This document shows, in pieces, positions 5,605-30,145 of a DNA stretch of 30,145 nucleotides (the stretch's first letter is position 1; each line of letters starts with the position of its first letter). The stretch comes from Chrysochromulina parva. Its lineage: Eukaryota; Haptophyta; Prymnesiales; Chrysochromulinaceae. A model generated the notes under the pieces. It did no database searches, was not told the origin of the DNA, and worked only from the letters and a program-made list of their open reading frames with translations. The stretch covers positions 1 through 30,145 of the forward strand of contig PJAB01000307.1 in the NCBI GenBank assembly GCA_002887195.1. The letters are read 5' to 3'. A program made the position numbers and the translations under genes.

Positions 5605-8600
5605 TTACACTACCTGGCCCAGGTAGACAGAAGACAGGTTGATACTTGCAGTTCGCGCGCTGTCCCTCAGCCCCTCAGGCAGCTTAAGCAACGCATCGCG
5701 CGCGCGAGTGGCCTCGACGTGTGCGCCCATCTTCGTAAGCGCTGTCGCAGTCTTCTCGAGCCCATCGCGGTGGCTCTCGAGCGTGTACAGCTCTAGCGAG
5801 GCGAGACCGACCTCGTACAGCATCGAGCGTGAGCCCGCCTCGTCCCTAGCACGCGCAAAGTAGTCCAACGCTTCGGCTTTTCGGCCGTAGAGCAAGCGCA
5901 GCCGCCCCTCGTATAGGAGCTGACGTGGCAACGCGGCCGCGTGCTGCTTTGCAAAGCGCGCAAAGACCTCGAGGGACTCGACGAGCAACGCAAACGAGAA
6001 CTGGTCTTTGTCTGGCATCGCGACCGCAAAAGCGAGCTTCTGGTTGGGACCTGGCGGTGGAGCCGTACAGACGCACTGCTCGGTGCCCTGGCGGTGGAAG
6101 AGCCGCCTGGTTTCCGTAAGGTCGAAGGCGCTCTCGGCGGCCGTCGCGAGCGCGCCGAAGAGCGCTTCGATGGCAGCGGTCAAGCCCCAGAAGCTGACAA
6201 GTTGAAAGGAGGTGCTCAACGTGATGGAGGCGAGTGCCTCGATGGCGAGCGCGCGTGCACTCTCAAAGTCAGGCGCCTCAGTGCGAGTGTGCGCGAACGC
6301 TTGGAGACCGAGCATGTTGAGCGAGGTCGAGGTGCTTTTCATGTACTGGGGCATCGTCTCCAGCATCACGTGGAGCAGCTCGAGCGCTTCGTCTGCGCGT
6401 CCAAACGAGAGCAGTGGTACGCATAGCCCGACAGTGAGTAGGCAGAGCATCGGCACGTCGTGCCGGGCGGCGCACGTCTCGCGCGCGTCGGTAAAAACGC
6501 GGTGCGCCTCCTCCAATTGACCCGACATGTAGAGGACCAGCCCGAGCTCGTGAGACACCTCCTCCCCGCGCCGGCCTGAGTACACCGCGTCACCCGCCAC
6601 GGCTGCCGCGCGCAGCGCCGCCTCGGCACGCTTCCAATTGGCTTCGCGCATCGCTGACTGGCCGAACCTCATGTTCGTGTACAGCGTAAGGCTTGGCGGA
6701 TTGTCGAGTTCGCTGACCAGACGATTGGTGCGCCCAAGGAAGCGCGCTGCAAGCGGCGCGTCGTGCGCAATCCGCTCGATGATGCACGCGGCGGCGTACG
6801 CGCGCGCAAGCTGCTCCGTCTGCGGCTGGAGAGCCTTGTCAGCGCCGATGACGGTGGCGCGGAGCGACTTGGCAGCTTGGTGCCGCCGGAGCAGCTCGGA
6901 CAGATTGAGGCAGCGGAGCACCGCCATGTCGTGCAACTCCACCTCCTCAAGCAAATAGGCGGTGCGCCCTAGGTTCTCGTACAGCCGCGCGACCATGAGA
7001 GCGCACCCCTCATCGAGTGGCTTGCGGAAGTAGAGGCGGCGCCACTCCTTTGCCACGAGCGGCCGGCGCAACCAGCGCAGCTCGTAGCGCTGCCGCGCGC
7101 GCATGAGCTCCTTGGAGCCCTCAACCGGCCGATCGAGCACCTCGAGCGCGTTCATGATGACCTCCTTGGCCTCGGGCAGCTCGCCCACGGCCAGGTGCGC
7201 CTCAGCTAGCATCGCGTTTGCGAGCGCCTGCTGCGTCTCCGTGTTGCTCGCCTGCAGCCGCTCGCGCAGCACGCGCAGCTCCTTCTTGATGAGCCCGATG
7301 GCCTCGCGGTGCATCGATGCCTCGAGGGCCGCCTTGGCCGCGCGGTCCAAGTACGAGACGGCCAAGATGGCTGCGTCCGCACCCGTCATCTGCAGCCAGT
7401 GGTCGCTGAGCATAGGATAGAGCCATAGCCGGTCACGTGGGTCGGGGTCGCCCTCGAGCACCGTTGCGATGGTCTTCTCTATCCACTTGGCAATGGCAAA
7501 GTGCTTCGCGCGCCGCTCCTCAAAGGGCAGAGAGTTGTATGCCACCTCGCGAAGCATCCACGACTGGAAGCGGTACACGCCACCTGAAAGTGACTCGCCT
7601 GCCACACCGCCGTCAAGGAAGCGCCCCCAGCCGTTGGACAGCTGCACCTTCTCTATCATTCGGGCCACGAGCAGCGTGCTGAGGAGCGCCTCGCGCTCGG
7701 CGGCCGTCTGCATGCCATCGAGTCCGAGAGCTGCGAGCACGACGGCCGGGAACTCCATGCCCATCACCGCCGCAGCCTTGATGCACGCTGCGCACTGCGA
7801 AGAGAGATGATCAATCTTGTTGGATATGGCCGCGTGCATCGAGATAGGTACCATCGTTTCGAGTTGGTCGGGTCGGATGGCGAGCCGGCACACATCGTTG
7901 TGCACGGTGATCACCTGCTGCTGCACCATGGTCGTGGCGAGCTCGATGCAGTAGAGCGGGTTGCCCAGGGTGCGCTGGAAGACGGCTTGGACCACGTTGT
8001 CGACGACCATCTGCGCACCCACGCAGTGGCACAGCAGCTCGTGCACATAGCGCGTGTCGAGCGGGCGCACCTCGTGCGTCAATACGCGCGGAAGCTGCAG
8101 AAACTTGAGTGCCTCCGGAGGCATCTCGCCCATTGCGCTGCCGCCTTGAGTTGTACCCAGCGCGCCGCCGTACTTGGCCGGACAGCCCAGCACAGAGCTC
8201 GCCAGGTCACCAGCCCCGCCAAGGACGCTCGTGCTGCCGCCCATGCCGCTCACGCCGGTCCCCATGGTGAGAAAGATCGCCATGTTCTCGATCTTCTCGG
8301 CCACATGTGCGAGGAGGGTCCACGAGACCGAGTCCATCGCCTGCGCATCCTCGATAATGAGCAATGCGCGCTTCGAGAGCTTCGCCTCGAGGTCGCCGAG
8401 GGCTGCCTCGAGCATGTGTGCCAGCATGTGCCGCGTGAGCGCCTGGCGAGACTCCTCCGACAAGCTGAGCGTCTCGTCGCTCATGGTGAGGCCACAGTCG
8501 ATCACGGTGTTGAGCAAGCCCTCATGCTTCTTAAAACGCTCCAGCTGCTCCATTTCCATCATCTCGGCTGCCGCCTGCCCCTGCCAGTCATAGCCGTGCC

Positions 8601-11136
8601 GCTCCTTGCCATCGAGCGTCGCGCTCAACCGAGGAGGTTGGCCACTGCCGCCGACCGCTGCGGTCGGATCGTCATCCACGCCGGCGGAGATGTTGGTGGC
8701 GGCGACGATGGTGGCGGCAAAGGTGGAGATGGTGGCGGCAACATCGTGCGCGTCGGGCCGTCCCTCTTGAATTGGACCGTTCGAGTGAGTGCATGAACGC
8801 CTGCAACCACGCGGCGGGCGTGTAGAATGGGACAGAGAGTGCGTGAACCAAGGGCGCTCCTTGCGCAAGGCAGCGAGCGGCATGAGCAGCCAGCCGCGAT
8901 AGACCTGCCGCAAGGCCTTGAGCGCTTGACTCTGCTCCGTTGAGGAACCTCTGCCGCCATCGCAACGGCGGCCAACAGCCTCGACCGCATCCACATGTCC
9001 GAGGAGCCGCGGCAGCTGTGGCAGGACCTGCCGCCAAATCGACAAGTAGTCGGCCACCTCATCCCGCTGAGCGGCCGTCTTGATCGGCAGTATGTCGTAC
9101 TGGGGGCAGAGCGACGCCACAATCTCTTCGATGAGCCTCGTCTTGCCCACTCCCGTCTCGCCGCGCAGCACGACCACGAAGCCCTCTCTGCTCTTGTGGA
9201 AGCCCCTCAGCGCCTGCTCGCACGAGTGCATCAGGCTCTGCTGGCCCACAAGCGCATTCTCGTACAAGAGGTTGCTCCCACTACTGCAGTGAGACAAGCC
9301 GCCAGATCTGCCGCGCGTTACCTCGGTCCGAAGCTCCGGCTCGTAGTAGTTCGAGTCGATCTTGTCGACCACGCGGAACTTTATTACGGGATCTTCGAAG
9401 CCTTTCATGACCACCTTGGGCAGCTCATCAAAGTCGAACTTGTCCGTCACGAGCGCCTTGTCGTGTGTCGTCTGGTTGACGAGCACCTCATTGACTGCCT
9501 GACTCATGAAGCGCGCCGCCATGTTGACCATCACGCCGTACTCGGTGTACTCGCCGCGCGAGCTCGAGCCCACATAGCCGATGAACACGGTGCCTGTCGT
9601 GATGCCGATGTTGGCCTTGAGGCGCATCGGGCGGATCTGGTCGCGGATGAGCAGGGCGCACCGGATGGCGCGCGCCGGGTCGTCCGAAAAGTACAGCGGT
9701 GGCAAGCCGAAGGTGATCTTCACGCACGTGCCCTTGTCATCGATGGAGACGCGCGAAAGAGAGCCCTTGTACACGTATACAGCGGACAGGATCAGGTACA
9801 CGACTCTCTGGAAGCGCTCGACGAAGTCGCCGTCTGAATAGTGCAGACCACCGATGCGGCAGAACATCATCGTCACCTCGCGGAACTGCGAGGCGGCCTG
9901 CAGCTTGCCTGTGACCAGGTGCGGGCGCAGCGGACCGGGCGCGTACACGTAGAAGCTACGCAGTGCCTCCTCGGGCACCACCGGCGACGACTTGAGCTGC
10001 TCCTCGAGTACGGCGCGCCAGTGCGGCGGCAAAGGCGGTTGCCGATGGCACTTGGTGATGATCTTGAAGCCGGGCCCGAACTTTCCCGTCTTGTCGTTGG
10101 GCACGGCTGTCCCTACGCAATGCGGCTGGACCAGCACCCATGCTTCTGGCGAGACGCACAGTTGACCTGTTTCGGCCTGCTGCTCGGCGTCTGAGAGCTG
10201 CCGGAGCGCATGCCCGGCCACGACGAACTCGCGGCGCAGAAAGTTGCCGAGGTCGACACCCTGCACGGCGCCCGCTCCCAGCCCGAGGTGCAGCTGGAGC
10301 ATGACACCCTCCTTGGTGTCCCAGTTGTTGAGCTGCTGCAACTGCTCAAGCCCGCACGCGACCGCTCGGTGCGTGAGCGTCTCGAGCGACTCGCCGCACG
10401 TGTTGGACGACCAGATGGACATGATGGCGTCACCGCCAAACTTGATTACGTCGCCGCTGAAGCGCGTGACCATATTGATGAGTTCCTCGAAGAATCGGTT
10501 GATGATGCTGTTGAGGATCTCAGCCCCCTCATTCCCACGCTCCTTGAGCAACTGGTTGGTCAGCTTCGTGAAGCCAGAGATGTCGCTGAAGAGCACGGCT
10601 GCGTTGAAGTCTTGCGCGTAGCCCTGATCGCCCAAATGCTGGAGCGAGTCGGAGCTGCAATTCACGTACGCCTTTTCGCCGTTCGGACCTACGAGCGGCT
10701 CGCTATAGTAGCGAGTGGCCACCTCGACGGGTACGAAGCGCAGCAGCGACATGACGTACTTGCTCATATCCTCCTTGGTCATCGTCGAGGTGTCAAATCC
10801 GCCGGCCGCGCGAGCGTCGGCAACCGTGAAGTTGCCAGCCGCTGTCTTGAGGCGATGCCTCTCGATGGCCGTGCGCCAGCCGGTTGGGCGGCTACCGGCC
10901 ACCGGGCTCGACAGCTGCTCGACCATCGCACTCGACGCTGTCGTGGATGGGCCCGCGTTACTGCCGCCGCCTGTGTTGCTGGTGCTGGTGCTGGTGCTGG
11001 TGCTGGTGCTGGTGCTGGTGCTGGTGCTGGTGTTTATGCTGGTGATGCTGCTGCTGGTGCTGCTGCTGCCGAAGCGGCTGCTGAAGCTGTCTAATGCCGC
11101 TCCTACCCAGTCCCCCGACGAGGTGGCGTCCACCAT
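5605..11136 (-). CDS. Soluble-type adenylyl cyclase (ADCY10-like), giant
   Basis: About 1843 aa, predicted to make cAMP from ATP in the cytosol. The order is that of animal soluble adenylyl cyclase: two class III catalytic domains, a P-loop ATPase, then a long helical TPR-like C-terminus. C1 (about residues 178-340) has the two metal-binding Asp residues, D185 in FSDISGFT and D236 in KFGGDA. C2 (about 418-590) has the adenine-contacting K468 (DDKG) and T531 and the transition-state pair N538 and R542 (EYTEYGVMVNMAAR), spaced exactly as in human sAC. K232 matches human K95, which binds bicarbonate. Walker A is GETGVGKT (659-666) and Walker B ALLIIEDAQ (about 924-932). A Thr-Ser repeat lies at 36-53. 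The ATG at 11136 is used; the frame continues upstream only via GTG. About 30 codons near residue 762 look out of frame (see findings), so the assembly or splicing there is suspect. Confidence 0.9.
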   Translation of the reverse strand: MVDATSSGDWVGAALDSFSSRFGSSSTSSSITSINTSTSTSTSTSTSTSTSTSNTGGGSNAGPSTTASSAMVEQLSSPVAGSRPTGWRTAIERHRLKTAAGNFTVADARAAGGFDTSTMTKEDMSKYVMSLLRFVPVEVATRYYSEPLVGPNGEKAYVNCSSDSLQHLGDQGYAQDFNAAVLFSDISGFTKLTNQLLKERGNEGAEILNSIINRFFEELINMVTRFSGDVIKFGGDAIMSIWSSNTCGESLETLTHRAVACGLEQLQQLNNWDTKEGVMLQLHLGLGAGAVQGVDLGNFLRREFVVAGHALRQLSDAEQQAETGQLCVSPEAWVLVQPHCVGTAVPNDKTGKFGPGFKIITKCHRQPPLPPHWRAVLEEQLKSSPVVPEEALRSFYVYAPGPLRPHLVTGKLQAASQFREVTMMFCRIGGLHYSDGDFVERFQRVVYLILSAVYVYKGSLSRVSIDDKGTCVKITFGLPPLYFSDDPARAIRCALLIRDQIRPMRLKANIGITTGTVFIGYVGSSSRGEYTEYGVMVNMAARFMSQAVNEVLVNQTTHDKALVTDKFDFDELPKVVMKGFEDPVIKFRVVDKIDSNYYEPELRTEVTRGRSGGLSHCSSGSNLLYENALVGQQSLMHSCEQALRGFHKSREGFVVVLRGETGVGKTRLIEEIVASLCPQYDILPIKTAAQRDEVADYLSIWRQVLPQLPRLLGHVDAVEAVGRRCDGGRGSSTEQSQALKALRQVYRGWLLMPLAALRKERPWFTHSLSHSTRPPRGCRRSCTHSNGPIQEGRPDAHDVAATISTFAATIVAATNISAGVDDDPTAAVGGSGQPPRLSATLDGKERHGYDWQGQAAAEMMEMEQLERFKKHEGLLNTVIDCGLTMSDETLSLSEESRQALTRHMLAHMLEAALGDLEAKLSKRALLIIEDAQAMDSVSWTLLAHVAEKIENMAIFLTMGTGVSGMGGSTSVLGGAGDLASSVLGCPAKYGGALGTTQGGSAMGEMPPEALKFLQLPRVLTHEVRPLDTRYVHELLCHCVGAQMVVDNVVQAVFQRTLGNPLYCIELATTMVQQQVITVHNDVCRLAIRPDQLETMVPISMHAAISNKIDHLSSQCAACIKAAAVMGMEFPAVVLAALGLDGMQTAAEREALLSTLLVARMIEKVQLSNGWGRFLDGGVAGESLSGGVYRFQSWMLREVAYNSLPFEERRAKHFAIAKWIEKTIATVLEGDPDPRDRLWLYPMLSDHWLQMTGADAAILAVSYLDRAAKAALEASMHREAIGLIKKELRVLRERLQASNTETQQALANAMLAEAHLAVGELPEAKEVIMNALEVLDRPVEGSKELMRARQRYELRWLRRPLVAKEWRRLYFRKPLDEGCALMVARLYENLGRTAYLLEEVELHDMAVLRCLNLSELLRRHQAAKSLRATVIGADKALQPQTEQLARAYAAACIIERIAHDAPLAARFLGRTNRLVSELDNPPSLTLYTNMRFGQSAMREANWKRAEAALRAAAVAGDAVYSGRRGEEVSHELGLVLYMSGQLEEAHRVFTDARETCAARHDVPMLCLLTVGLCVPLLSFGRADEALELLHVMLETMPQYMKSTSTSLNMLGLQAFAHTRTEAPDFESARALAIEALASITLSTSFQLVSFWGLTAAIEALFGALATAAESAFDLTETRRLFHRQGTEQCVCTAPPPGPNQKLAFAVAMPDKDQFSFALLVESLEVFARFAKQHAAALPRQLLYEGRLRLLYGRKAEALDYFARARDEAGSRSMLYEVGLASLELYTLESHRDGLEKTATALTKMGAHVEATRARDALLKLPEGLRDSARTASINLSSVYLGQVV
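10981..11028. repeat. Hexanucleotide microsatellite (GGTGCT)8
   Basis: Eight tandem GGTGCT units inside the adenylyl cyclase gene, read on the minus strand as alternating Thr-Ser in the disordered N-terminus. Its length is likely to vary between strains, by whole dipeptides and so without frameshift. Confidence 0.92.
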
Positions 11137-11479
11137 TAGATTACTTCTGAGGTATGCCTTCCAAAATCGGAAACGCGCGACGCACCTTTTGGTTCCGCCC
11201 GATTTCTCGTCTCGGATAAGATTCCGCACCCCTAAAGGATCCGTGCTGTGCACTAGCTCCTGGTAAGTGGCGTGTGTGAGTACGTGTCAGAAATCACACG
11301 TACGTTCCCACCATAAACATTTGTACACACAGCCAATGGATTTAACACCACAGACACCGGACAGGCGTACATACGGATTCGGTTACCATTAGCTTAGGGA
11401 CCCTGGACCCCCTTACCACAGCCATACTCGCTTAGCCGCCGGTCCGGGCCACATTCACATTCACACTGACAAACAAATC
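11137..11479. promoter_or_regulatory. Shared upstream region of divergent cyclase and D27 genes
   Basis: 343 nt separate the two divergent ATGs (11136 minus, 11480 plus). No coding frame belongs here. By position it must carry the start-site regions of both genes. No canonical TATA box or named element was identified. Confidence 0.5.
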
Positions 11480-16583: not shown

Positions 16584-18608
16584 TCAGAAGCGGAGTTTGT
16601 GCTCCTCTGCGGAGTAGCTATACTCTTCGTCCGCAGAGGAGCTTGTGGTTTTGTTCCTCCTCTGCATCTGGCGAGGGTCGGAAGGGTCCTCGACCTCGTC
16701 ACCAAGAGTTGAGCCACCGTGGCCCATCCCGATGGATTTCGGTCCGTCGATCATCGGGATGCTGTCGGCGAGTCGGCCGATGGCCTTCATGGTGACCGTT
16801 GTCGCATGCTTGAGGCGTGTCCATGGGTTTGGGGACACCACCGGGATTTTGTTGACCGTGTCGCCAATGGCCGTTGTCGCCAGCTCAACATGCCGCTCGA
16901 GGGCCGTTTCCCAAAACCCATGAACACTCGAGCCCACTTCCTCCTCGCTGATCGCCTTGGGGAGATTTGCTTGCGAAGTAAGCCGCCCCTTGACGCCTGC
17001 CACCATGTCTTCCTCGGTGAGCACTCCCGATCCGTCCTTGTCCATCGACTCGAATAGCTTGGTGAAGAGGCGGACGTTGTCCATATCGATCACCCCGAGC
17101 CGGTCCATCATGCCGATGACGAACTCGAACTTGTCCACGCCGCTCTGGTCCTTGTCGAGGCTTCTGAGCATGTCCAAGTCGAGCGTGCTTCGGAACATTT
17201 TGAGCTTCGCCAGTGCCATACTGCGCTGCCTCCTCAGCTTGTTGACGTCGCCGACGATCGCGGCGAGGAGTGAGACGGAGATGACGATGTGGAAGAAGGC
17301 CCACATGTGGCCACCACTGGTGTTGATACGCACGTCTCCGTACCCGACGGTCGTCGCCGTGACGAGGCAGTGATAAAGGGCCAGACCAAAGTCCCAGCCT
17401 TCGAGTACGGAGAAGACGGCGGAGAAGCAGCACTGGATGGTGACGATGATGAGCGCGGGTACGAAGAGGTTCTTCGAGTAGAAGGCGAGAGGAGGGCGAG
17501 GCACTTTGAAGTCGGCTGTGCCATCGCCATCGATGTCGATCCCCTTTTGCGGGAAGATGCGCTCGAAGAATTCGCGTGAAGCTTCAAAGAGCGGGCTGAA
17601 CAATTTCGAGATCAGCGAGGAGAGCTGCGCGAATACGATGCAGATGCCGAAGAAGATGTAGAAGATGGTGAAGGCCCTGGACCAGGGGGTGGTGGGATAG
17701 ACGTCGCCATAGCCGACGGTCGATGCGGTCACCATCAAGAAGTACAAGGACTTCCAGACATCCCATCCCTCTTCGGCCATGTAGTACGCGCAGCCCGTGC
17801 CAAAGTAAAGGGCGCACCAGACGAGACAGACGATTGCCTGAGTGACAGCACGCTTTTGGAGGCGTGCTCGGTGCACGTTACGGACCTCGCTCTGTGTCTG
17901 CACGGCCTGCTTCGCCCCGTGCTTCGCACCAGGAGCCTCTATGGCCTTCGGCATCGTCAGCAGGCTAGGGGAATCATGAGGCTCGACTGTAGTCGTGACG
18001 ATCTCGTCGGGCTGCTCGTCGTCGAGCACATCCACCCCTTGTGAGGACTGCCACAGTCCACGCAAGCGAGCCACCGTGACGGGCGCATCGGCAGGTGCAC
18101 TGGATGCCGATAGGAGCCGACTGGCCGTTTTCGCGTCTTCCTCTTCCAATCTATTGGATGGGCTGGGCTCCTGCGATCTGCGATAGACCGATGACGAGGG
18201 GCTGACCGCCGCCGACCCGCCGAAATCGAGAGACGATTGGCTCGCCGCCGGCGATCCGCCGAAATCGGGTGGCAGCCTCTCCTGTGACAGCCTCCTCTCA
18301 CGAGCTTCGATTCCAGCCTCTATCCATGGCCTTAGAGGAGACCCGCCGTATTGGCCTTGGGAATTTGTCGAATGCAGCAGCGAGCCTTTTGCGTGCATCG
18401 CCTTCTCGGCTCGCTTGCGCGCGAGCGTCTGGATTGCGTTGGTCATCCGGCGCGCCTCCGCCCATTCAACAGCGTCGGCAGTAATCGGAGCCGTGTCTGA
18501 CACGGATTTCATCGAGCGACCGGATGTGTCATTGGTGGGAGGATGAGAATTCGAAATAAGCAGTTGAGACGTCGACGGCGCTGGCCGCTCGACAGTGACG
18601 CTCTTCAT
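16584..18608 (-). CDS. Two-pore K+ channel with EF-hands (TPK-like)
   Basis: 674 aa from the ATG at 18608. The N-terminal 255 residues are cytosolic and Ser/Pro-rich. Two pore units follow: a membrane helix (about 257-277), the K+ filter TVGYGD (297-302) and a helix (about 312-333); then a helix (about 381-402), the filter TVGYGD (420-425) and a last helix (about 434-453). This is the layout of plant TPK channels, which conduct K+ across vacuolar or plasma membranes. C-terminal EF-hand loops start at D485 (DKDQSGVDKFEF) and D523 (DKDGSGVLTEED), implying Ca2+ control. An extra DIDGDG loop at 358-363 lies in the linker between the pores. The C-terminus repeats SSADEEYSYSAEEH and its DNA forms a 13-bp stem. 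The frame continues upstream only to a TTG. The membrane in which it acts cannot be decided. Confidence 0.92.
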   Translation of the reverse strand: MKSVTVERPAPSTSQLLISNSHPPTNDTSGRSMKSVSDTAPITADAVEWAEARRMTNAIQTLARKRAEKAMHAKGSLLHSTNSQGQYGGSPLRPWIEAGIEARERRLSQERLPPDFGGSPAASQSSLDFGGSAAVSPSSSVYRRSQEPSPSNRLEEEDAKTASRLLSASSAPADAPVTVARLRGLWQSSQGVDVLDDEQPDEIVTTTVEPHDSPSLLTMPKAIEAPGAKHGAKQAVQTQSEVRNVHRARLQKRAVTQAIVCLVWCALYFGTGCAYYMAEEGWDVWKSLYFLMVTASTVGYGDVYPTTPWSRAFTIFYIFFGICIVFAQLSSLISKLFSPLFEASREFFERIFPQKGIDIDGDGTADFKVPRPPLAFYSKNLFVPALIIVTIQCCFSAVFSVLEGWDFGLALYHCLVTATTVGYGDVRINTSGGHMWAFFHIVISVSLLAAIVGDVNKLRRQRSMALAKLKMFRSTLDLDMLRSLDKDQSGVDKFEFVIGMMDRLGVIDMDNVRLFTKLFESMDKDGSGVLTEEDMVAGVKGRLTSQANLPKAISEEEVGSSVHGFWETALERHVELATTAIGDTVNKIPVVSPNPWTRLKHATTVTMKAIGRLADSIPMIDGPKSIGMGHGGSTLGDEVEDPSDPRQMQRRNKTTSSSADEEYSYSAEEHKLRF
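16601..16642. repeat. Perfect 13-bp inverted repeat in the 3' end of the K+ channel gene
   Basis: GCTCCTCTGCGGA (16601-16613) and its exact complement (16630-16642) enclose a 16-nt loop. The structure lies inside the last coding codons, just before the stop at 16584, so the mRNA would carry a GC-rich hairpin there. Confidence 0.85.
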
Positions 18609-19478
18609 CGAGACCGCAGAGTGATTAGGCGCGCCGGCCCAGTGCCGTGTCAACGGCAAGACTTGAACGTAGCAGCGGCAAGTCGAAGACTGTGATCAGC
18701 TTCAGCTTCCAGACGCGCGTCTCCCCCTCAGCCCTATCACTCCGGACTCGGACTTGCCCTGGCTGTGTCATCGTCTCAATAAAACTCTTCGGAAAAGTGG
18801 CCTAATTTGGGCATGCATCTGCCAGTCAATCACATCGGCTGCATGCAGTCGCGCGTTTGATATGCACGTGCTCGTGTAGTCGGATCCGCGCACGCCACGA
18901 TAAGGGGAATCCTTCGGGCGTCAAGGCGGGGTGAAGCGCGGCCGATGTGTTTCGTTAACAGGTGTTTCGTGGATCGCCTCCTCCACAGCCGGCATGCTTC
19001 ACGGCATGCTCTCATGTGCTCTCCCAACGCCTCGGCGGTGAGAAGAAGGTGGGCGTCGCCTTGCCCCCGAAGCTCAGAGTGCACGCGCGCTCAAACTGTC
19101 CACCGCCGCCGCGTGCGCGACTGCGGCGCGATTGGGGCGACCGGCATCGACAGAAGCCGCACGTTGCCGCGACGGATGCACGGATCAGAGTCGCTGCTCT
19201 CGTGCCCATCGAGCAGCTGGAACGACCACCAACGTAACTCGAAGCGCGCCTTGATGGTCGTGCGTTCGTAGTTCGTGAACTCGCCTGCGACGATCCGGGC
19301 AAATGTGCCCGTCTGCCCGATGGCCAGCCGCGGTTTTCCATATCGGTTTCACATAACGGTTTTCCATGGCTCATCGACCTCTCAGTGGAATTGTGGTTCG
19401 TGGTGCGCGGTACATGCTATAGCTCCTGCCGATATGATTGCCGCGGAGACCACGCCGCCCGTCGTCCAGGTACCGCCA
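18609..19478. other. Intergenic region upstream of the K+ channel gene
   Basis: 870 nt without a credible gene; frames on both strands overlap and look random. It should include the K+ channel promoter and the 3' UTR of the NYN protein gene. It carries repeat copy 2 (18864-18915). An 11-nt direct repeat, CGGTTTTCCAT, lies at 19331-19341 and 19357-19367. Confidence 0.5.
18864..18915 (+). repeat. Diverged direct repeat, copy 2 (5' flank of K+ channel)
   Basis: GCACGTGCTCGTGT (18864-18877), then GCACGCCACGA and AATCCTTC (18908-18915), colinear with 16461-16520 with small gaps. The two copies bracket the channel gene in direct orientation. Confidence 0.65.
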
Positions 19479-22041: not shown

Positions 22042-22202
22042 CAGAAAAGTGTCAAGGAACTTCCTTAGTGTGAATTCATAACAAGAAAGTGTGGTAGTGG
22101 CTGGTCGGTACGTTGTGTGTCGATTCAACTGACCCTTTCTCAAGAAAGTGACTAACGGCCACTGTTGTGACTTGTGTAATCCATGGCGCTATGTATGGAT
22201 GC

Positions 22203-25200
22203 TCATGGTTTGCGCTTGTAAGCAATCAAGTATTCGGGATAGATGTACTCGCCATGCGTGACAATGATCTCGCGGAAGCGCATAATCTTGGGCCCCAACT
22301 CAGCCAGCAGTGAGTGGTGGCGCACTGGTGGGTCGACAGCGCCACCAGTGTCAATGTTGGCGAGCTCTCGGTCCTCTACCGCCCACACAGAACGTGACGT
22401 GTTGTCCATGTTCTGCTTCGCGTCTTGCGTCCGCACGGGCAGGCCGAGTGCGACGCGGCAGACGAGGCAATAGAAGACTGGGTCGCTTGTCGTGCCTGGG
22501 TGTGCGCCGCCCGCTGGGTAGAGCAGCTTGTGAAGCGCACTGAAATCCTTGTTCAGCTCCGGGTCCGGGTCCGGGAACACGTACTGGTCAATTTTGGCGG
22601 CATCCTCTGCTAAGTATGTGCCGTTGCCAAAAAGCCCGCCAGAGAAGCGCTCGTTGAGCCCATCGTTCAGCAGATCCGGCAAAACTTCTGGTTTCGTGCC
22701 GTGCAACAAGTAGTGCTCGTGCGACTGGGCGTCAACGCTTCCGGGCATTTTCTTGGCAAGATCCGCGAGCTCAATGTTCGTGCTCGGCGCCTTGTATGTG
22801 TTGCACCTTTCCACACGCTCGACGTCGTTGCCCACCTTGCTCCTCCCCGTGCGAAAGCGCTCGTACAGCCTGGGGTGCTCGATACGCCACGCGCGCTGCA
22901 GCTCGAGCTTAGTGTACTTGCCGGCCCACTTGACATCGCGCCCCACGCCCAACTCGTGCGGCTTGGTCGTGCACAGGAAGCGCTGGAGCAGTTCGTACGT
23001 CTTCCCGTCGTTGCCTGCGTTCACTTCATGCAAAGCGTAGCCGCGGTCCGAGCTGAGTGCCATCGCCTGCTCCCAGTACGAGGGTAGTCCAAACCGTTGT
23101 CCAAACCGTTGTCTCATAGAATCCTTGAACTTATCGACCTGCTGTCTCTTGTCTTGCAGCCTTGCCTCGTGTGTCGGACGAGCGGCTATGAGCTTGCTCA
23201 GTTCATTCTCGTATACGGCGCGCTCAGAGCCTTGTACCTTGAGCCGCTTCCCAATGCACATGCCGCCAGCGACGTACGAATCAAGCTCACTTTGCAGCAG
23301 CCGCGACTGCACGTTGATCGTGACAATCTCCGACTGGATCTGCACAATCTCCGAAGTGAACCTGTGCAGCTGGCCCACGGCGTCCGATACCTGAACCGCT
23401 GCCGACTCGAGGCTGTGAGCCTGCGCCTGTGCAGCTGCTCGAACCGCTACCTCGGCCGCCCGCAGGTTGTTCTCGCTGTCGTTGATTCTTTTGTTCGCTG
23501 CGTTGCTCTGCTCCTGCAGTTGCGCAATCAGCGCCTCTCGCGCCGCCGCCGCGTCACCATCACTAGCTGCAGACGCCTGCGCCTGCCGCAGCCGTTGCTC
23601 CACAGACGCCGCGGCTTCTTTGGCTTGCTCGAGCTCGTACTTCGCAGCTTCTTTGGCTTGCTCGAGCTCGAGCTCGTTCTTCGCATCCATGGCTACCATC
23701 GCTGCGTCTGCTGCCGCTGCACCAGCCGTTGCCGCGTCGATCTCGCTCGCACCCGCCATCACGGCATTGCACGCCGCGGCCGCCGCTTCCATCGCCACGG
23801 CCATCGGCATCCCATGCATGGTGGCCGCTCTGCTGGCAGCCACAGCGGCATTGAACGCCTCCGGGCTCGCGCCCCGAACGGAGGCATTGGCCGCCGCTTC
23901 GAACATGGCGACAGCCACCTTGGCCTGGTCGATCGGAGCAGGGGCCACCCTGCCGCTCCGCTTCGAAAACATGCGCAGCAGTGGCGGTGGCGTAGCAGTC
24001 GGCGGCGGAGCAGGCAGCGGCCGAGAATGCGCGATCGCCAGCGCCTCTCGCGCAATACCGAGCGGATCGCTGTGCGATCGAGAGCAGCGCAGCAGCTTAA
24101 GGCCATGCTTCACGAGCTCGTTCTCCGCCTTGATGCGCAACGCGGTCTCCGCCATCACCGTCTGATTGGCGCGCTCGAGCCGCGTGCGCAGCCGCAGGAG
24201 CTCCTGCTCGTGCGCCTCCTCAGCGTCCTTGAGCCGCTCGAGCTCCTCGAGCTGCGCGCGCAGCTCCTCTATCTCGGCCTTCTCCGCGCTCGAGCGCGCC
24301 TCCATCTCCGCCTTTAGCTCGGCGATAAGCTTTGAAATCGGGTCGCGGTTGATCACCGCGCGGTTCACAATCTTCTTGGCCGAAGCCGCGTAGCGAAGCG
24401 TCGAGACTGTCTCCTCATAGTCCGCCGCGCCCGGCGTGATCGCCGCGAGCATCGCCGCGCGCGAGTTTCCGCCGAGACAGTCCTTGAGCAGCCACGTGAG
24501 CATCGAGTCGCGGTGTGGAACGTGCCCGGCCTCCGCCCCTTCGGCCAGCTTGCGGATCACCATCGAGAGCGTCAGGAGCGACTTGTTGATTGCGCCGCCC
24601 TCCTTGAGCTGCTGCCCATGTGCTTCGGTGCGTTTCGCTCGCTCCGAGCCGGCGAGGTCGACGAGGTAGATCTTGGAGCGCACCTCGGTCACGACCTCCT
24701 GGCCTTCCGAGTTGCGCTGCAACCGCGCCTGCAGCAGCGACACTATGAACATCGCGTGCGAGCGCGACGAAGTCGCGTTCATCGCCGTCTCCGCGACGCG
24801 CCGCCGCCCATCGCCCTCCTCCATCAGCTGCGCCATTTGCTCGGGTCCGTCAACGGCGACGGCCTTGAGGCCTTCGACGTACGGTCCAAGCTTCTTGTGC
24901 TCGCGAACCTTCAGCGGCTTCGCATTCGCATCGGTGCCGCCGTCCGCCACCAGCAGGTCGCGCAGCTTCTCCATGTAGATCTCGAGGTACGAGACGTGCA
25001 GCTTGATGGTCACGCGCTCGTCGGCCGTCGAGGCGCCGACGAGAGCGGTGCGGCGCACGAACAGCTCCTCGATGAATTGGGGCGTGATGCCCGGCTCGTC
25101 GGCCGTACCCGCCATTGAGAACGTCTTGCCGGAGCCCGTGTGCCCGTACGCGAACAGCACGGCGTTGTAGCCCTGCAGCCCGTCGTCGAGCAGGCGGCGC

Positions 25201-25496
25201 CCGAGCGCCTCGTACACCTCCTTCTGGCTGCGGTGGTGGGCGTCGGCGGGATCGAAGCTCCAGAACGCGTGGTCGAAGAGAAATTCCTGCTCCTCGCCCG
25301 TCTGTGGGTGCCACACCACCACCTTGCCGTTCGGAACGCCCTCGTCCTCGTTCTGCATCTTAACGATCAGCTTCTGCTCGTCGGCGGTCTTCTCGCGAGT
25401 CCAGGGCCGGCAGCGGACGGCCACCACCACCTTCGCCGCCTCCTCCTGGCCAGCCGACGTCATCGTCAGCAAGCTGGGTTGGGTGGGTGGCGCCAT
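22203..25496 (-). CDS. Kinesin motor fused to PARP ADP-ribosyltransferase
   Basis: 1097 aa from the ATG at 25496; another ATG lies 11 codons on, at 25463. Residues about 22-380 form a complete kinesin motor: P-loop GHTGSGKT (118-125), switch I NATSSRSH (240-247), switch II DLAGSE (280-285) and a neck-side RAVINRDP that resembles kinesin-3. Glu/Ala-rich coiled coils follow (about 390-490 and 590-720). A linker at about 830-870 (LELQRAWRIEHPRLYERF) resembles the segment that precedes PARP domains in other proteins. Residues about 915-1097 form a PARP catalytic domain with the H-Y-E triad: H932 in LLHGTK, Y961 in GNGTYLAEDAAKIDQYV and E1088 in YPEYLIAYKR. It should bind NAD+ and, with Glu present, could make poly- as well as mono-ADP-ribose. 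One uninterrupted frame encodes everything, so a joining artefact would have to be in frame. A microtubule-borne ADP-ribosylating enzyme is the inference. Confidence 0.93.
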   Translation of the reverse strand: MAPPTQPSLLTMTSAGQEEAAKVVVAVRCRPWTREKTADEQKLIVKMQNEDEGVPNGKVVVWHPQTGEEQEFLFDHAFWSFDPADAHHRSQKEVYEALGRRLLDDGLQGYNAVLFAYGHTGSGKTFSMAGTADEPGITPQFIEELFVRRTALVGASTADERVTIKLHVSYLEIYMEKLRDLLVADGGTDANAKPLKVREHKKLGPYVEGLKAVAVDGPEQMAQLMEEGDGRRRVAETAMNATSSRSHAMFIVSLLQARLQRNSEGQEVVTEVRSKIYLVDLAGSERAKRTEAHGQQLKEGGAINKSLLTLSMVIRKLAEGAEAGHVPHRDSMLTWLLKDCLGGNSRAAMLAAITPGAADYEETVSTLRYAASAKKIVNRAVINRDPISKLIAELKAEMEARSSAEKAEIEELRAQLEELERLKDAEEAHEQELLRLRTRLERANQTVMAETALRIKAENELVKHGLKLLRCSRSHSDPLGIAREALAIAHSRPLPAPPPTATPPPLLRMFSKRSGRVAPAPIDQAKVAVAMFEAAANASVRGASPEAFNAAVAASRAATMHGMPMAVAMEAAAAACNAVMAGASEIDAATAGAAAADAAMVAMDAKNELELEQAKEAAKYELEQAKEAAASVEQRLRQAQASAASDGDAAAAREALIAQLQEQSNAANKRINDSENNLRAAEVAVRAAAQAQAHSLESAAVQVSDAVGQLHRFTSEIVQIQSEIVTINVQSRLLQSELDSYVAGGMCIGKRLKVQGSERAVYENELSKLIAARPTHEARLQDKRQQVDKFKDSMRQRFGQRFGLPSYWEQAMALSSDRGYALHEVNAGNDGKTYELLQRFLCTTKPHELGVGRDVKWAGKYTKLELQRAWRIEHPRLYERFRTGRSKVGNDVERVERCNTYKAPSTNIELADLAKKMPGSVDAQSHEHYLLHGTKPEVLPDLLNDGLNERFSGGLFGNGTYLAEDAAKIDQYVFPDPDPELNKDFSALHKLLYPAGGAHPGTTSDPVFYCLVCRVALGLPVRTQDAKQNMDNTSRSVWAVEDRELANIDTGGAVDPPVRHHSLLAELGPKIMRFREIIVTHGEYIYPEYLIAYKRKP

Positions 25497-25565
25497 GTGT
25501 GGGGCAGGCCGCGAGTACGACCCTGTTAATAGGAACTTCACATAAAACAGTACTTGACAAAATGT

Positions 25566-25655
25566 GGGGGGAGCCCGGACACACACGGAGCACACACGGG
25601 ACACACGGGCGCACACGGATCACACGGATCACACAGACGAACCTCACGACCATCC
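25566..25655 (+). repeat. ACAC-rich dispersed repeat, copy 1
   Basis: Opens with GGGGGGAGCCCGGACACAC, runs through CACACGG units and closes with GACGAACCTCACGACCA. The opening and closing phrases recur at 29876-29925. It lies just upstream of the kinesin-PARP start. Confidence 0.7.
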
Positions 25656-25695: not shown

Positions 25696-25832
25696 CCAAA
25701 ACACGAAAACACAAAACACAGCTCACAGGCCCTGCGGGCCCGCCCAAAACACAAAAACACAAAACTCAGGCCCTGCGGGCCCGCCCAAAACACAAAAACA
25801 CAAAACACAGGCCCTGCGGGCCCGCGCAAAAC
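25696..25832. repeat. 41-nt tandem repeat array, about three copies
   Basis: Units begin at 25727, 25768 and 25809, exactly 41 nt apart. A partial unit (AAAACAC part only) precedes them from about 25696. Each unit combines an A/C-rich stretch (CAAAACACAAAAACAC) with a GC palindrome GGCCCTGCGGGCC that can form a 5-bp stem with a 3-nt loop. The third copy diverges after about 25832. Confidence 0.9.
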
Positions 25833-26611
25833 ACGAAAAGTACACGCAAAAAAGCAACATACAATAATGCTCTGGGCATGCTGTTATCCTTAAAAATCCA
25901 CCAAAACTTACCCACATGACAGCGCGACGACCAAGGCGACGACCGAAACCGCGGCCGACTCAACAGCCGCCGCAGCCCCGGAGCCGACCGCTCCCCGCGG
26001 CCGACTCAGAAGAGCCCCCCCCAGCGAACCCGACCCTGCCGCCACCCGCTCCCACAGAACCCAGAACGTCTCCCGCTCTCCCGCCGCGCGTCGAAGCACG
26101 AAGGCGGTCGGCGAAACATGTACCGGTACTGAATGAATTGTTTCTTCAAGACTGCGAAGCGGGAGTGTCACCTGAATGCTGAAAATGAGACGTTCAACTT
26201 GCCTTGTTTTCGCGGAGCGCCGGCGTGAGCGCGGCGCTTAGGATAAGGATTCCTACCTCGCACGTCATCTGTATCATGGGTCCGGTATGATGACTTGATG
26301 AGCTTCTATCATCTTCGATCTTCACCGTTCAGTATCCGATCATTCGATTCGATATCGATTGAGATAATTGCGTATGACCGGCGAAAGCACCCAAAACCTG
26401 GCCAACTAGAAGTGGGGCCAGGGCCACTTGAAGTGGAGCTACCGTGGTCTCTCTCTCTGGACTCTTGTGTGACATAGTCCGCAAGACTTGAAAGTCCTGA
26501 AGACTATGACTCATTTATTATAGCACCCGCCTCACCGACGGTCGGCCGCTGAAGGTGAAGCGGCGCGCATGTGCTCGCGGTTGAAAACCAACACCTTGCT
26601 CTCCAAGACAT
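25833..26611. other. Gene-free region with short hairpins
   Basis: A Pro/Arg-rich plus frame (25916-26182) and an overlapping Ala/Val-rich minus frame (25908-26171) compete for the same DNA. Neither has a recognisable domain, so I call neither. Further on is an inverted repeat CATAGTC (26473-26479) / GACTATG (26502-26508), with a nested GACT/AGTC. CCGCGGCCGACTCA occurs twice (25949-25962, 25995-26008). No gene is supported. Confidence 0.5.
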
Positions 26612-30090: not shown

Positions 30091-30145
30091 GCATTACTCA
30101 TACACTGGTGCAGCCCCCAGGCCCCCCAGGCGTTCCCAGGCGCCC

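Follow-up and report, generated by a model that had tools for sequence, protein, structure and literature searches.

Kinesins and PARPs work together in animals. Tankyrase 2 partners Axin and the kinesin KIF3A in GLUT4 transport (PMC12402623), and KIF4A partners PARP1 (PMC12752079). In both cases, the kinesin and the PARP cooperate but do so as separate binding proteins, not as one chain. Here, we describe a gene of the haptophyte Chrysochromulina parva in which the two are joined. This gene, termed kinesin-PARP, lies on the minus strand at 22203..25496 of contig PJAB01000307.1 (assembly GCA_002887195.1), the whole of which, at 30,145 nucleotides, is referred to as the window. A single open reading frame (ORF) specifies a kinesin-3-related motor, a middle region and a C-terminal PARP domain. 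The component families are known and it is their union that is a new architecture. The initial annotation knew of no such fusion, and none was found among the papers listed by the literature searches, which were mostly without subscription papers. A survey of kinesins comprises 1,624 proteins in 105 architectures (PMC2867816), and in its main text the terms 'PARP' and 'ADP-ribos' are absent. Similarly, 'kinesin' is not mentioned in the PARP family survey PMC2964712, nor in a second PARP family survey, PMC10450202.

The frame at 25616..22203 is open over 1,137 codons, the first of them a GTG, before it reaches the stop at 22203. The ATG at 25496 yields a product of 1,097 codons, and residue numbers are counted from this Met. 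A plus-strand reading of 22203-25496 is ruled out as it contains stops, and plus-strand ORFs, such as 23097-24317, overlap the gene. When the bases of the ORF were shuffled, 0 of 2,000 shuffles were stop-free. In addition, third-position guanine-plus-cytosine content is high in all three parts (0.88 in the motor and 0.75 in both the linker and the PARP part; 0.71-0.81 in five other measured ORFs of the window). The frame therefore looks coding throughout. As both Pfam domains score above their curated cut-offs within this one minus-strand ORF, the proposal that a kinesin and a PARP share a frame was borne out; the initial annotation had not named the strand.

The motor occupies 24369..25415 (minus strand, as are all features of the gene). 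Positions 1-327 of the 327 in the Pfam Kinesin model (PF00225) are matched with an E-value of 9.2e-98, which indicates a complete motor. The P-loop GHTGSGKT (residues 118-125; 25122..25145), switch I NATSSRSH (240-247; 24756..24779) and switch II DLAGSE (280-285; 24642..24659) were read as motifs exactly where the initial annotation had placed them. By its sequence, a complete motor with P-loop, switch I and switch II, the protein belongs in the kinesin superfamily. Apart from the kinesin and PARP models, the only Pfam match in the protein is to a microtubule-binding model, and this match overlaps the motor.

Two comparisons relate the motor to kinesin-3. Among the best 60 of 185 PDB matches, the top ones are KIF14, KIF13B and KIF1A (E 4e-93 to 1e-79), followed at a distance by kinesin-2 (E 5e-64) and kinesin-1 (E 2e-58). 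KIF1A, KIF13, KIF14, unc-104 and Klp98A belong to the kinesin-3 family. A motor tree of 23 rows was built from the three complete kinesin-PARP motors, namely those of the window protein and of two relatives, P0002 and P0005, with 11 other kinesins from the listed matches of the motor search explained below and nine kinesins of the same genome; unnamed kinesins from that genome served as outgroups. The three kinesin-PARP motors and seven motors with kinesin-3 names form one clade (99/99). The kinesin on contig C516 of the same genome adjoins the kinesin-PARP motors (96/96) at 47% identity, and a long-branched Aphanomyces kinesin, the best non-fusion match among the 120 motor-search matches listed, falls outside the kinesin-3 clade. 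An FHA domain after the motor is typical of kinesin-3, and a lysine-rich K-loop in loop 12 is a second feature of the family. No Pfam match to an FHA domain was obtained in kinesin-PARP at E-values up to 1, and no lysine cluster was seen by eye in loop 12, where the sequence is EGAEAGHVPHRD. Since neither was found, the motor is classed by its sequence as kinesin-3-related and not as canonical kinesin-3. In short, it resembles the motors of KIF14, KIF13B and KIF1A but is followed by a C-terminal PARP domain.

The PARP catalytic domain lies at 22215..22913, where positions 21-198 of the 199 in the Pfam PARP model (PF00644) are matched (E 4.8e-11). It is part of a larger C-terminal ADP-ribosyltransferase (ART) module (residues 803-1097; 22206..23090), defined by paralogue and fold comparison, which begins with a 'PSYWE' N-terminal part. 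The His-Tyr-Glu (H-Y-E) triad is found, as initially annotated, at His932 (22701..22703), Tyr961 (22614..22616) and Glu1088 (22233..22235). With a PARP catalytic domain, a predicted ART fold and the triad, the protein falls into the PARP/ARTD family. Conservation of the triad was assessed in an alignment of 25 rows, called A2, which holds the window protein, 13 of the 63 matches of the PARP search described below and 11 of 12 paralogous ORFs; the twelfth, L059, was kept out because its PARP domain is split by an insert. His and Tyr are present in 25 of 25 rows, and the Glu in 22, with Asp in the other three. In the known kinesin-PARP proteins the triad is retained in six of six. The triad alone does not separate mono- from poly-ADP-ribose transfer.

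The fold of this part is predicted to be tankyrase- or PARP15-like, with tankyrase among the closest solved folds in the families listed by the comparison. Tankyrases (PARP5a/b) are characterised by ankyrin repeats and a SAM domain (PMC2964712). The window protein, although its predicted fold is alike, has neither (no Pfam match at E up to 1), carries Ile in place of a tankyrase Ser and has an N-terminal motor. PARP15-type proteins bear macrodomains, and no macrodomain was detected in kinesin-PARP with Pfam. Likewise, Pfam detected no DNA-binding domain of the WGR, zinc-finger or any other type. This, together with the tankyrase/PARP15-like fold, counts against a PARP1-type role in DNA damage; the initial annotation had suggested DNA-damage, spindle or flagellar functions as candidates.

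The region between the two domains was modeled with AlphaFold2. The full-length model is weak, with a mean pLDDT (per-residue confidence) of 67.4 and a pTM (global-fold confidence) of 0.40. It predicts, in order, a long post-motor helix that could be a neck coil (residues 406-463; 24108..24281), a Pro-rich linker predicted to be disordered (464-523; 23928..24107; block pLDDT 24-42 over 461-530), short helices in an Ala-rich sequence (524-584; 23745..23927), three long helices predicted to form a coiled coil (585-802; 23091..23744) and the ART module. Dimerisation would occur via the coiled coil of the long helices. NCBIfam matches are all far below cut-off, the best being an SMC-like coiled-coil type in the helical middle. 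PADLOC gave one weak match, also in the helical middle (E 0.0057), and a link to a defence system was rejected on the basis of this single weak match.

Evidence that the fusion exists beyond this contig came from the PARP region, which, used as query, matched 63 of 5.8 billion proteins. Five of these carry kinesin and PARP together, and all five are at least 86% identical over the PARP region; the remaining matches are at 45% identity or below. The five represent other protein clusters from other contigs, with both domains and a similar linker, so that the same architecture does recur elsewhere. Among the 63 matches, no orthologue was seen that has PARP as a gene of its own, which would have argued for two genes; every match at 86% or above carries kinesin. 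P0002 (1,097 residues) begins at the same Met and is identical to the window protein in 1,090 residues, and P0005 (1,094 residues) is 95% identical to it. The search with the motor scored 7,228 proteins and, among the 120 matches listed, recovered the same five fusions, the others being kinesins without PARP.

Conservation along the chain was then compared by part. Relative to P0005, identity is 100% in the first half of the motor and 98.5% in the second, 84-92% in the middle and 97% in either part of the ART module. Relative to P0006, it is 89.6% in the second motor half, 80-84% in the middle, 82.7% in the N-terminal ART part and 91.8% in the catalytic part. For P0003 and P0004, the corresponding values are 88.9% for the motor second half, 87.5-96.8% for the middle and 95-96% for the ART parts. 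Taken together, the sequences suggest constraint on both ends of the protein, in some comparisons only.

The PARP part proved to belong to a family within its own genome, an assembly of 45 Mb in 2,199 contigs. This genome has 34 PARP matches on 31 contigs and 112 kinesin matches on 75 contigs. The only contig common to both sets is C307, and thus the kinesin-PARP gene is single as far as detected. Two other contigs have kinesin genes broken at an identical position of the motor, at the start of C1668 and the end of C1896, as if a shared motor half had collapsed in assembly. These pieces were considered as broken kinesin-PARP copies and rejected, as neither contig has a PARP match.

When the genome was queried with the PARP region, 18 matches beyond the gene itself were found on 16 other contigs. 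Eleven of the 18 span most of the ART module and are 42-44% identical to the query; identity peaks at 56% in a match of 154 residues at the edge of C950. Paralogous ORFs were read on 12 of the 16 contigs (all except C950, C1941, C925 and C1072). The Pfam partners on these 12 are a protein kinase (four), a 3-hydroxyacyl-CoA dehydrogenase NAD-binding domain (3HCDH; one), peptidase S51 (one), zf-CW with DUF5710 (one), ankyrin repeats with a PBZ finger (one), a TIR-like domain (one) and nothing above cut-off (three). That the PARP module is a cassette common to many other proteins of the same genome lay beyond the view of the initial annotation.

Three of the paralogues merit individual description. 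L058 (1462-3213, minus strand, G000:C297) combines a TIR-like domain (27.9 bits against a cut-off of 28.0) with the ART module, which places two NAD+-linked folds in one frame; here, the triad Glu is replaced by Asp. L049 (1475-3796, minus strand, G000:C911) joins the 3HCDH domain (E 4e-21) to the module and is a possible NAD sensor. Finally, L059 (1309-4479, minus strand, G000:C249) has ankyrin repeats and a PBZ finger, followed by a PARP domain interrupted by an insert that gives weak WW and CUE matches.

To relate the cassettes, a module tree of 43 rows was calculated from four of the six kinesin-borne modules, 11 from the same genome and 28 other PARP-region matches. The 3HCDH copy adjoins proteins without 3HCDH, and the kinase and peptidase S51 copies fall in one unresolved group. 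Since near copies bear different partners, the ART part appears to have been exchanged often between them, judging from the sequences. The kinesin-borne copies form one separate long branch (length 0.87, support 100/100). Among the 63 PARP-region matches, a by-eye count gave a kinase domain in 15 and a helicase domain in nine. Kinase-PARP and NFX1-helicase-PARP proteins of protists, which are within P0007-P0064, have the ART module in common with kinesin-PARP (25-45% identity). Their N-terminal partner is not a motor, and the kinesin copies form a branch of their own. A viral source for the cassette was sought by scanning viral contigs with the module alignment, and of 60 pattern matches none was confirmed, which is weak evidence as only two patterns were used. 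The genome also has two PARG matches on one contig and six macrodomain matches, possible eraser and readers of ADP-ribose, respectively.

How might such a protein work? Our preferred explanation, to which we give just short of an even chance, is that the product of this ORF would be a dimeric motor on microtubules with a tankyrase-like ADP-ribosyltransferase built in, likely to tag proteins of the track, itself included. Because the ATPase motifs are intact, the protein would be expected to move on microtubules; because H-Y-E is intact, it would be expected to transfer ADP-ribose from NAD+. The helices between motor and ART would hold the dimer together. The least certain step is the substrate, for which tubulin, a microtubule-bound protein and the motor itself are candidates. 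A precedent for the chemistry exists in PARP-7, by which alpha-tubulin is mono-ADP-ribosylated and microtubule instability promoted (PMC7884071). If the explanation is correct, a motor would deliver a protein-modifying enzyme within its own chain, and microtubule traffic or stability would be tied directly to NAD+ status. The protein would also be a natural tool with which to write ADP-ribose at microtubules.

Several observations weigh against this explanation. Kinesin-PARP is known here from sequence alone, and with a pTM of 0.40 the full-length model says nothing on the relative placement of motor and ART. Residue 969 is Ile at the position of a Ser in tankyrase (AENSSKS), a replacement that may weaken NAD+ binding; Ser is present in only three of the 25 A2 rows. 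P0003, P0004 and P0006 begin at the same Met beyond switch I and so are without a P-loop. For P0006, the end of the contig could explain the missing motor half, because the protein takes up 840 codons and its longest contig is 2,572 bases in length. P0003 and P0004 are on longer contigs; in these two, the first half of the motor may be set apart by an intron or may truly have been lost. The pattern of high, low and high conservation is absent relative to P0003 and P0004, and relative to P0006 the N-terminal part of the ART module is not above the middle, leaving only the catalytic part and the motor second half above it. As all the relatives found are at least 85% identical, conservation is demonstrated over a short distance only, and distant fusions beyond the best 120 of the 7,228 motor matches may have been missed.

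Other explanations share parts of this evidence. The ART could act mainly on its own chain. ADP-ribose placed on the neck or coil would then inactivate the motor or free it from the track, and transport would be controlled by the NAD+ level. The long predicted helices between motor and ART in one chain are compatible with this, and tankyrase, whose fold is among the closest, modifies itself. We consider it unlikely, since it leaves the ART module on kinases, a dehydrogenase-type domain and a zf-CW protein unexplained, unless each is self-regulated, and the model does not provide the domain contacts that it involves. Loss of the enzymatic activity is rather improbable. Here, the PARP part would transfer no ADP-ribose and would serve as a binding domain or adaptor recognised by cargo, to which Ile969 and the Asp for the triad Glu in three paralogues lend some weight. 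The six kinesin-PARP proteins nevertheless all retain H-Y-E, a residue other than Ser at the Ile969 position is the rule in the cassette family (22 of 25 A2 rows), and the catalytic part is 92-97% identical to those of P0005 and P0006 against 80-92% for the middle, which is not so for P0003 and P0004.

The remaining explanations ascribe no role to the link. Cassette shuffling might have produced a neutral fusion in which motor and ART function separately. In favor of this, closely related copies of the cassette sit on differing partners, most kinesin domain architectures are organism-specific (PMC2867816) and the middle is no less conserved than the motor second half relative to P0003 and P0004. 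It is decidedly improbable, as motif residues are intact in both domains and the long, fully supported kinesin-borne ART branch indicates a lineage that is not very recent. Finally, an assembly or gene-model artefact merging two adjacent genes might be suspected in a draft contig from an assembly in so many pieces. This is largely refuted and hardly credible, as the frame runs uninterrupted through motor and PARP, and a chimera is ruled out by the five other clusters with both domains on other contigs.

The preferred explanation takes in the paralogues of kinesin-PARP as well. The N-terminal module of each cassette protein would set where and when the ART acts, and the kinesin copy would confine ADP-ribosylation to microtubules or their ends. 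Tentatively, and with the balance somewhat against us, we propose that kinesin-PARP is the first self-propelled writer of ADP-ribose, walking on microtubules and marking the track or its riders. It would be one output of a combinatorial system that plugs one ART cassette into motors, kinases, and TIR-like and dehydrogenase-like sensors, with each N-terminal module deciding where and when NAD+ is spent. That ART-cassette proteins have expanded in the genome of a phytoplankton species is of interest in itself, as each partner domain hints at the inputs of its enzyme.

Other features of the window were noted. The kinesin-PARP stop is separated by about 60 bp (22144-22202) from the next ORF on the same strand, a fatty-acid elongase (PF01151, E 7e-49), the true start of which is possibly further inside its ORF. 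The best-scoring relative of this elongase to bear a species name is from the haptophyte Calcidiscus leptoporus (57% identity over 70% of the query); 24 matches without such a name score higher, and a lower-scoring one labelled 'Probo...' (P0218) has 63% identity over 53%. The assembly has 58 light-harvesting protein matches, as expected of a photosynthetic eukaryote, whereas a RuBisCO large subunit was looked for in it and not found. Some 210-340 bp upstream of the kinesin-PARP ATG, at 25706-25839, there is a 41-bp tandem repeat in 3.3 copies, which contains GGGCGGGCCCGCAGGGCCTG. An ORF of 1,882 codons at 5605-11253 (minus strand) contains two stretches of class III nucleotide cyclase and matches an AAA ATPase; its TPR matches are weak. 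Lastly, an ion channel ORF at 16584-18659 (minus strand), with two Ion_trans_2 stretches and weak EF-hand matches, possibly encodes a two-pore potassium channel.
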